64,000 nucleotides of DNA, taken from positions 372,001-436,000 of the forward strand of contig NZ_JBGCUN010000002.1 of the NCBI RefSeq assembly GCF_041103235.1, read 5' to 3'. This stretch comes from Yoonia sp. R2331. Lineage in GTDB: Bacteria > Pseudomonadota > Alphaproteobacteria > Rhodobacterales > Rhodobacteraceae. This document shows, in pieces, positions 62,273 to 64,000 of the stretch (within the stretch, counting starts at the first letter, position 1; each line of letters begins with the position of its first letter). The notes under the pieces are model-generated. The model was not told the DNA's origin and did no database searches. It saw only the letters and a list, made by a program, of their open reading frames with translations. A program made the position numbers and the translations under genes.

Positions 62273-63565
62273 ATGGTCGACATCGCCACCCGCGTCTGGA
62301 ACCACAAATGGAAGATCGACCCGATCGTCCGTTCCCTGATCGACACCGATTTCTACAAACTGCTGATGTGCCAATCGGTGTTCCGCAACAAACCCGACAC
62401 GGCTGTCACCTTCTCCCTCATCAACCGCGCCACCCATATCCCGCTCGCCACCCTCATCGACGAAGGCGAGCTGCGCGAGCAACTCGACCACATCCGCTCC
62501 CTCTCGCTCCGCCGCGGCGAAAGCACATGGATGCGCGGCAACACCTTCTACGGCAAACGCCAGATGTTCTCGCCCGAATTCATGGACTGGTTTGAAAACC
62601 TCCGCCTGCCGCCCTACCACCTTGAACGCGTTGGTGACCAATACGAACTCACCTTCGAAGGATCATGGCCCGAGGTCATGCTTTGGGAAATCCCCGCTCT
62701 CGCTGTGCTGATGGAACTGCGCGGCCGCGCCGTCCTCGGCGCAATGGGCCGGTTTGAACTGCAGGTCCTCTACGCCCGCGCCATGACCAAACTCTGGGAA
62801 AAGGTCGAACAACTGCAAACCATCCCCGACCTGCGCATCGCGGACTTCGGCACCCGCCGCCGCCACTCCTTCCTCTGGCAGGACTGGTGCGTGCAGGCCA
62901 TGTCCGAAGGTCTGGGCAGCGCCTTCGCGGGCACCTCCAACTGCCTGATCGCCAAGAACCGCGACATGGAGGCGATTGGAACCAACGCTCACGAACTCCC
63001 CATGGTCTACGCCGCGCTTGCGCAGGACGACACGGCCCTGGCACAGGCTCCCTATGACGTGCTGTCCGACTGGCAGGCCGAACACGACGGCAACCTGCGC
63101 ATCATCCTGCCCGACACCTACGGCACACCGGGGTTCTTGGAGCGTGCGCCGGATTGGCTCGCCGGCTGGACCGGCATCCGCATCGATTCAGGTGACCCCG
63201 CCGCCGGTGCCGAAGCCGCAATCGCGTGGTGGACATCCCGCGGCGAAGACCCCCGCCAAAAGCTCGTCATCTTCTCCGACGGCTTGGACGTCGACAAAAT
63301 CCTGTCCCTGCACGCGCAATTCGTCGGCCGAGTCCGCGTTTCCTTCGGCTGGGGCACCATGCTGACCAACGACTTCAAGGGTCTGACAGATGGCGACAGC
63401 CTCGCCCCCTTCTCACTGGTCTGCAAAGCCGTCTCGGCCAATGGCAACGCGACGGTCAAGCTGAGCGACAACTCGAATAAAGCGATGGGGCCACTTGACG
63501 AGATCACTCGTTACAAGCGAGTGTTCGGTGTCGGTGATCAGGCCGAATTTGAAATCTTGGTTTGA
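62273..63565 (+). CDS. pncB: PncB, nicotinate phosphoribosyltransferase
   Basis: PncB turns nicotinate into nicotinate mononucleotide in the Preiss-Handler salvage route. The 430-residue product has SLIDTDFYKLLMCQSVFRN, the LRIADFGTRRRHSFLWQ loop with the autophosphorylated-His region, SNCLIAKN, and the ISGD-like IRIDSGDPAAG phosphoribosyl site. It completes the pathway with pncA (54223-54816). A GGAGGACC ribosome-binding site precedes the ATG. The last 30 codons (from about 63470) use more A/T-ending codons than the rest of the gene. Confidence 0.96.
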   Translation: MVDIATRVWNHKWKIDPIVRSLIDTDFYKLLMCQSVFRNKPDTAVTFSLINRATHIPLATLIDEGELREQLDHIRSLSLRRGESTWMRGNTFYGKRQMFSPEFMDWFENLRLPPYHLERVGDQYELTFEGSWPEVMLWEIPALAVLMELRGRAVLGAMGRFELQVLYARAMTKLWEKVEQLQTIPDLRIADFGTRRRHSFLWQDWCVQAMSEGLGSAFAGTSNCLIAKNRDMEAIGTNAHELPMVYAALAQDDTALAQAPYDVLSDWQAEHDGNLRIILPDTYGTPGFLERAPDWLAGWTGIRIDSGDPAAGAEAAIAWWTSRGEDPRQKLVIFSDGLDVDKILSLHAQFVGRVRVSFGWGTMLTNDFKGLTDGDSLAPFSLVCKAVSANGNATVKLSDNSNKAMGPLDEITRYKRVFGVGDQAEFEILV

Positions 63566-63595: not shown

Positions 63596-64000
63596 ATGGA
63601 TCAAATTGAAAACGAAAAACTCGACGAGAGCATTAGACATATTCTCTCTGGAAACGCAGTATGCTTTGTTGGGGCCGGATTTTCAATAGGAGGTGAGAAC
63701 AGCGAAGGAGAGAGCATTCCTAGTACTGGGGAACTGGAGAAGCTGCTTCGCGAACTTGCTGACTTGCCTCCAGATGAGCAATCGACACTTCCAGCACTAG
63801 GCGACTATATCGAAGATGATCCACGGCTCGCTCCAGAACTTCGATCTCTATTGGCTAGGCGGCTTACGATTTGCAAGCCCAATGCAACGCAACAAGCGCT
63901 TATCTCATTGCCGTGGCGGGCAGTTTTTACAACAAACTACGACGATCTATTTGAGCGTGGTCCGAACCCAAGTCAATATAACCCAGTCTCAATCGCAACA
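63596..64000 (+). CDS. SIR2-like (SIR2_2-type) NADase-domain protein, 5' part only
   Basis: The frame opens at ATG 63596 and runs without a stop to the window end (135 codons). It has the NAD-binding motif AVCFVGAGFS (residues 21-30) and the TTNYDDLFE motif (residues 112-120), the two sequence hallmarks of SIR2-like domains in prokaryotic defence proteins. The catalytic His and any C-terminal sensor lie beyond the window. AAAGAG precedes the ATG. It uses AGA, ATA and CTA codons rare in the neighbours and is lower in GC, suggesting horizontal transfer. It follows pncB by 30 nt. Which SIR2 subtype it is cannot be told. Confidence 0.8.
   Translation, partial: MDQIENEKLDESIRHILSGNAVCFVGAGFSIGGENSEGESIPSTGELEKLLRELADLPPDEQSTLPALGDYIEDDPRLAPELRSLLARRLTICKPNATQQALISLPWRAVFTTNYDDLFERGPNPSQYNPVSIAT

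Follow-up and report, generated by a model that had tools for sequence, protein, structure and literature searches.

A putative Avs5-like SIR2-STAND defence gene between pncB and arfB, broken by a cargo-carrying IS1595-type transposon in Yoonia sp. R2331

Results

A SIR2 reading frame at the edge of the window

The window analysed here, a stretch of 64,000 nucleotides of the Yoonia sp. R2331 genome (G000:C2:372001-436000), ends within a gene whose frame starts at the ATG at 63596 and is open through the window end in the ORF list (Table 1). Positions in locus L002, which carries the sequence across this edge, are converted to window positions by adding 62000. The SIR2-like gene placed here by the initial annotation is real. 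The entire 209-aa ORF scored 39 bits against Pfam SIR2_2 (cut-off 24.5), and the motifs noted earlier were located at residues 26-30 (GAGFS) and 112-116 (TTNYD, asparagine at residue 114), together with an HG motif at residues 151-152 whose histidine is residue 151. The part inside the window scored 21.1 bits against SIR2_2 (E=3.5e-4), under the cut-off of 24.5, and matched the PADLOC models Dsr2 (3.9e-9) and ThsA (2.1e-8). The classical SIR2 model gave no match to the ORF at E<=1. The gene does not look like a CobB-type single-domain metabolic sirtuin, as only SIR2_2 was matched and the whole gene runs on into a STAND region. The low GC content pointed out earlier was borne out, at 0.47 and 0.46 for the two halves of the gene compared to 0.62 for pncB, the core gene that indeed lies just before it, and 0.585 for the window. 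A second SIR2_2 protein was observed elsewhere in the genome (G000:C1:2645268-2645762, 53.3 bits, 434-aa frame).

The expectation that the gene would continue past the window held in part. The frame does not stop at once and extends for 75 more codons, stop included, but the gene is broken there: the frame stops because an IS1595-type transposon sits after codon 199. The last codons of the ORF fall within the transposon end, preceded by 199 gene-encoded residues, and the SIR2_2 match stops at model position 90 of 141. As the fragment ends inside its domain, it would not be expected to function in the strain of the window.

Table 1. Features of the locus, of the related tRNA loci and of the pncB/arfB slots surveyed. 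Positions are those of the window or, where prefixed, of the named locus.
Feature	Position	Strand	Evidence or remark
pncB, nicotinate phosphoribosyltransferase, left slot border	62273..63565	+	NCBIfam PRK05321, 476 bits
SIR2 domain, N-terminal half of SIR2-STAND gene	63596..64000, ORF on to L002:2225 (= 64225)	+	motifs, SIR2_2, PADLOC
IS1595-type transposon	L002:2193-4710		2,518 bp, 24-bp ends, TATTTTTT on each side
45-aa ORF of transposon	L002:2565-2702	-	
DUF3800 gene	L002:2721-3575	+	Pfam DUF3800, 28.7 bits (cut-off 21)
DUF3800-VIII RNA	L002:3561-3627	-	Rfam, 54.1 bits (gathering score 40.2)
Transposase	L002:3658-4641	-	IS1595 DDE, 112.7 bits (cut-off 27)
Second half of broken SIR2-STAND gene	L002:4719-6596	+	sub-threshold nSTAND matches
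Hexamer array ACTCCT	L002:6596-6691		between ends of SIR2-STAND gene and arfB
arfB, right slot border	L002:6684-7097	-	convergent with pncB
tRNA, anticodon TTA	L045:1396-1481		
tRNA, anticodon TTA	L053:4444-4530		inside paired transposon
tRNA, anticodon TTA	L054:2433-2519		inside paired transposon
tRNA, anticodon TTA	L164:3930-4018		
tRNA, anticodon TTT	L167:1399-1484		
tRNA, anticodon TTA	L168:1901-1986		
tRNA, anticodon TTA	L170:1381-1468		
Slot content	own		SIR2-STAND
Slot content	L140		NTP_transf_6, 120 bits; weak 2TM effector match, E=2.9e-4
Slot content	L141		GmrSD, 138 bits; PADLOC best Orf5 7.1e-158, HEC-06 6.6e-87
Slot content	L142		AIPR, 26.4 bits (cut-off 25); nothing in PADLOC
Slot content	L144		OLD across two overlapping frames, 3.1e-151 and 4.2e-38
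Slot content	L150		dCTP-deaminase-type protein, PADLOC 1e-136
Slot content	L151		216-aa protein without match
Slot content	L147, L148, L157		housekeeping-looking genes (by eye)
Slot content	L152		one doubtful ORF
Slot content	L155		gap of 25 bp, no more

The interrupted gene is whole in a second genome of the species

The insertion after codon 199 breaks the SIR2-STAND gene in the genome of the window. The transposon has perfect terminal inverted repeats (24/24 bp), is present in a single copy and encodes the sole IS1595 match of that genome. On its far side the gene resumes as a frame of 621 aa when counted from the TTG that the mechanical list gives as its start, or of 643 aa when its open frame is followed back into the transposon end. 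This second half contains the P-loop GNGKS in its STAND region, and its matches to nSTAND_NTPase5 (32.4 bits, cut-off 34) and nSTAND3 (19.7 bits, cut-off 27.2) were both sub-threshold. Searched apart, the N- and C-terminal pieces aligned to the single 827-aa protein of one relative, at residues 3-188 (36%) and 212-826 (33%) respectively.

Genome G688, listed as the same species, keeps the gene whole, with a single 824-aa ORF at the corresponding place. The 8-bp target duplication TATTTTTT, found twice around the transposon, occurs once in the G688 region, and no transposon end was present in the 7,001 bases read. The insertion therefore varies within the species. The 824-aa protein aligned over residues 4-723 (E=1.2e-42) to PDB 9jap, a SIR2-like domain-containing protein of 869 aa, leaving its last 101 residues unaligned; no publication on this structure was found. 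The second half was matched in 4 of 295 family genomes, own included, and in 19 of 72,556 plasmid records, with no relative found in the viral contigs. In genome G121, a relative of the gene adjoins a terminase-like ORF (assigned by eye).

A one-gene slot with variable content

The initial annotation had proposed that the SIR2 gene was the first of a defence island. This was rejected, given that arfB comes next, followed by genes that look by eye like housekeeping genes; what lies here is a one-gene slot closed by arfB, in which the two border genes are convergent. Neither HerA, Argonaute/APAZ nor TIR was found as a partner among four scanned slot proteins. The ACTCCT array beside arfB counts 16 copies in the genome of the window and 10 in G688, and is absent from three genus relatives read.

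Slot content was surveyed at 20 pncB loci, comprising the own locus and 19 that were fetched from 21 matching genomes among 41 searched, one matching genome with a 54-base match being left out. In 12 of the 20, arfB was found within the same stretch; the 8 others include L145, where the contig ends, and L143, where arfB is about 8 kb away. Strong defence-type content was observed in four of the 12 slots (own, L141, L144 and L150) and weaker content in two. Defence genes do not have the slot to themselves, as housekeeping-looking genes occupy 3 of the 12. The OLD-type gene at L144:5838-7629 lies on two overlapping frames, and a second slot defence gene may thus be broken.

Comparison of the own locus with G688 revealed 0 nt differences in the first 198 codons of the SIR2-STAND gene and 1 nt in the remaining 626 codons, compared to 29 nt over 430 codons of pncB (Fisher p=5e-13). 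The stretch holding this single difference spans L002:1395, within pncB, to 6796, within arfB, the transposon and the hexamer array excepted. On the strength of this contrast the slot was probably exchanged recently between strains, most likely through homologous recombination within the core genes on either side, both readings resting on one strain pair.

The transposon belongs to a family with interchangeable cargo

An exact 22-mer of the transposon end was found in 86 genome-contig stretches, 80 of which were taken as loci; with L002, L019, L021 and L022, this amounted to 84 loci examined. Both ends were in range in 35 of these. All 35 paired elements matched the transposase (partially in L056) and 34 contained the 45-aa ORF. 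Identical 8-bp flanks were present in 27, own included, while the other eight were cut by the locus end (2), differed by one base (2) or differed by more (4). The 27 target duplications were 82% A/T, and in 24 of the 27 cases the 300-bp flanks had a lower GC content than the remainder of the locus (Wilcoxon p=5e-5). Such a preference for GC-poor surroundings would explain insertion into the GC-poor SIR2-STAND gene. Two matches to the transposon end were found in the viral contigs (L019, L020), with a transposase fragment in L019.

Cargo was evaluated by scanning ORFs with a minimum length of 78 aa. Of 75 such frames 68 were covered, leaving aside the 83-aa ORF of L002, three copies in L092 and a further three ORFs in L052 and L054. 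At a threshold of E<=0.01, 13 Pfam families were matched, led by DUF3800 (10), SocA_Panacea (4), Cas2 (4), PIN (3) and DUF1828 (3), as were 14 PADLOC models, led by PDC-M04A (5), PDC-M24B (4) and Cas2 (4). Many of the remaining ORFs had no family match. Judging from the family names, part of the cargo would be toxin-antitoxin-like or defence-like. An ORF of 88-97 aa recurs near one transposon end in L021, L050, L058, L062, L071 and L092, and the L071 copy gives a weak Cas2 match (21.1 bits, cut-off 23.8). One family member (L097:1202-4167) lies on a contig labelled as a Woesearchaeota MAG, where a binning error is possible, and its two-gene cargo is as in L063 and L064. A tRNA-Phe (gaa) gene was observed within a transposon of the same IS1595-type family at L096:3151-3223.

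A DUF3800 gene paired with a structured RNA

By profile, DUF3800 genes were detected in 10 paired elements out of 35, the own one among them, as well as in 4 that are unpaired; among plasmids, the DUF3800 protein was found in 2 of 72,556 records. The DUF3800 protein of the L002 element matched PADLOC PDC-M04A (1.6e-18), component A of the candidate system PDC-M04, and no further component was found in the PADLOC scan of that element, which covered its ORFs other than those of 83 and 45 aa. The RNA assignments that follow are Rfam matches throughout. Across 38 loci beyond L002, DUF3800-VIII or -VII RNA was found in 3 of the 10 with DUF3800 (L071, L076 and L096) and in 0 of the 28 others. The remaining 7 of those 10 showed no DUF3800-type RNA above threshold, nor was such an RNA found in seven loci whose DUF3800 relatives are weaker. 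A search of 385 genomes of the class matched DUF3800-VIII in three (own, G624 and G389), each time adjoining a DUF3800 gene; a match was also obtained in Bacillus subtilis, the control genome. In all six places (own, L071, L076, L096, G624 and G389) the RNA stands tail to tail with the DUF3800 gene and overlaps its end. A MAFFT alignment of five DUF3800-VIII sequences, run without a control, contained two-sided changes in 15 of 25 predicted pairs.

Two broader proposals were abandoned. The RNA is not part of the transposon backbone, given its absence from the 28 loci without DUF3800 and two matches beside DUF3800 genes whose surroundings show no IS1595 transposase in the ORF list. The idea that every DUF3800 element has a structured RNA following its transposase was likewise dropped, as minimum folding z-scores were equally low in elements without DUF3800. 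One DUF3800 gene with its DUF3800-VIII RNA (L135:3138-4071) was observed among genes that look by eye like those of a Mu-like prophage, where the ORF list contains no IS1595 transposase.

A tRNA with a stop anticodon beside a small protein

In L045, L053 and L054, a protein of 135-139 aa adjoins a tRNA predicted by ARAGORN. The tRNA has a long variable arm, and its anticodon TTA would read UAA. By eye, the tRNA appears to be of leucine type. Searching 371 genomes of the order for the partner protein returned six matches. Five were strong and adjoin a tRNA, with anticodon TTA in four and TTT in one (L167); the sixth was weak (E=9e-4) and has no tRNA beside it. The seven tRNA sequences align, the anticodon loop being conserved with one base changed in L167, and the anticodon stem carries paired changes in L164 and L170. 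L164 has a partial transposase and no recognisable transposon ends. A two-mismatch pattern search for the tRNA gave hits in 2 of 295 family genomes and none in the viral contigs, and the small protein was not found in the 72,556 plasmid records. No gene clearly needing UAA read-through was found in four tRNA loci, the matches there being conserved DNA in other frames.

Discussion

We assign a probability of roughly 0.84 to the reading that the ORF at the window edge is the N-terminal half of a one-gene SIR2-STAND defence protein, Avs5-like yet not a curated Avs5, which occupies the pncB/arfB slot and has been broken by a cargo transposon. The report on PaAvs5 (PMC12931631) describes the same domain order and a SIR2 domain that hydrolyses NAD+ after a phage protein has been sensed. 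It places the motifs of PaAvs5-1 at residues 24-28, 108-112 and 153-154, and gives a mutual identity of just 18-21% for the three PaAvs5 proteins tested. The protein studied here has the N-terminal SIR2 motifs GAGxS, TTNxD and HG in closely matching positions, followed by a putative STAND NTPase and a long C-terminal part; however, it is transposon-broken in the genome of the window and its score lies far under that of the curated family. Against the Avs5 equivalog NCBIfam NF041814 (cut-off 1000 bits) the N-terminal half reached 31.4 bits and the intact relative L009 57.1 bits, while no Avs5 match was listed for the second half. The protein is therefore termed Avs5-like. DSR2 and ThsA share the SIR2 domain, with profile matches of 34.7 and 39.7 bits, but the resemblance is limited to that domain and no TIR partner was found among the scanned slot proteins.

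The analogy with PaAvs5 makes the intact protein most likely a phage-triggered, NAD-depleting enzyme. Its C-terminal part would sense a phage protein, upon which the STAND NTPase would drive activation and the SIR2 domain would then hydrolyse NAD+, halting infection. The defence-type character proposed initially thus stands, in the form of a SIR2-STAND protein of Avs5 kind at a site occupied in relatives by other genes of defence type.

STAND proteins are able to detect mobile elements other than phages, and with relatives of the second half on plasmids, the gene could be functional in a role not directed against phages, for instance as a plasmid-directed surveillance factor. We consider this rather unlikely, since several genes of phage-defence type occupy the same slot, the G121 relative adjoins what looks by eye like a terminase ORF, and the nearest characterised architecture is anti-phage (PMC12931631). 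Less probable still is a working rearrangement, in which the SIR2 fragment either cooperates with the STAND part as a second protein or serves on its own as a small NADase. The two halves have open frames and lie 1 nt from the uninterrupted gene, so that selection to retain them is conceivable; this near-identity is nevertheless accounted for by a recent insertion, the gene being whole in G688. The fragment moreover stops short within the SIR2 domain, and the second half depends on a TTG start in the mechanical list with a frame that reaches into the transposon. Either half of the broken gene may retain some residual function. An assembly error that fused unrelated pieces is hardly credible as the origin of the transposon in view of its perfect ends, its 8-bp duplication and its single copy in the assembly, and the same kind of duplication flanks most paired members of the family. 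The preferred reading remains that of a defence gene broken by insertion.

Elements with passengers have precedents. IS1595-family elements with passenger genes, MTnSag1 and tISCpe8, are described in PMC5704250; they are alike in transposase family, ends of about 25 bp and 8-bp duplications, whereas the family described here is compact and combines a conserved 45-aa ORF with interchangeable cargo. Tn7-like transposons carry defence and toxin-antitoxin modules as cargo (PMC8649781) but employ another transposase family, the elements here measuring 1.5-3.8 kb with small modules. The gene itself is Avs5-like, and transposons with defence and toxin-antitoxin cargo are already known (PMC8649781); the cargo modules are the most novel part. 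No published report of such IS1595 cargo modules was found among the titles and abstract openings listed, in a literature coverage that misses most subscription journals. DUF3800 RNAs are reportedly described in an RNA-motif paper. The pair resembles other DUF3800 genes with DUF3800 RNAs in Rfam in having the DUF3800-VIII RNA at the 3' end of the gene, and differs in riding here as a transposon passenger. An RNase H fold is predicted for DUF3800 in PMC10910872.

More speculatively, and with considerable doubt, the IS1595-type family could serve as a small carrier of exchangeable modules for addiction or defence against phages, two kinds of which would be new. One would pair the RNase-H-like DUF3800 protein with a structured RNA; the other would join a small conserved protein to a leucine-type tRNA that misreads stop codons (through anticodon UUA) or, once, lysine codons (through anticodon UUU), the tRNA acting as toxin or antidote. 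At the present locus such a module might have replaced one defence by another.

The locus captures a defence gene between two events in one species, a probable recent exchange of the slot followed by inactivation through a transposon whose own cargo is a further candidate module for defence or addiction. Together, own and G688 constitute a natural test of the role of the SIR2-STAND gene. The transposon family in turn provides a defined set of minimal, interchangeable candidate modules, including the DUF3800-RNA pair and the putative stop-reading tRNA with its partner.
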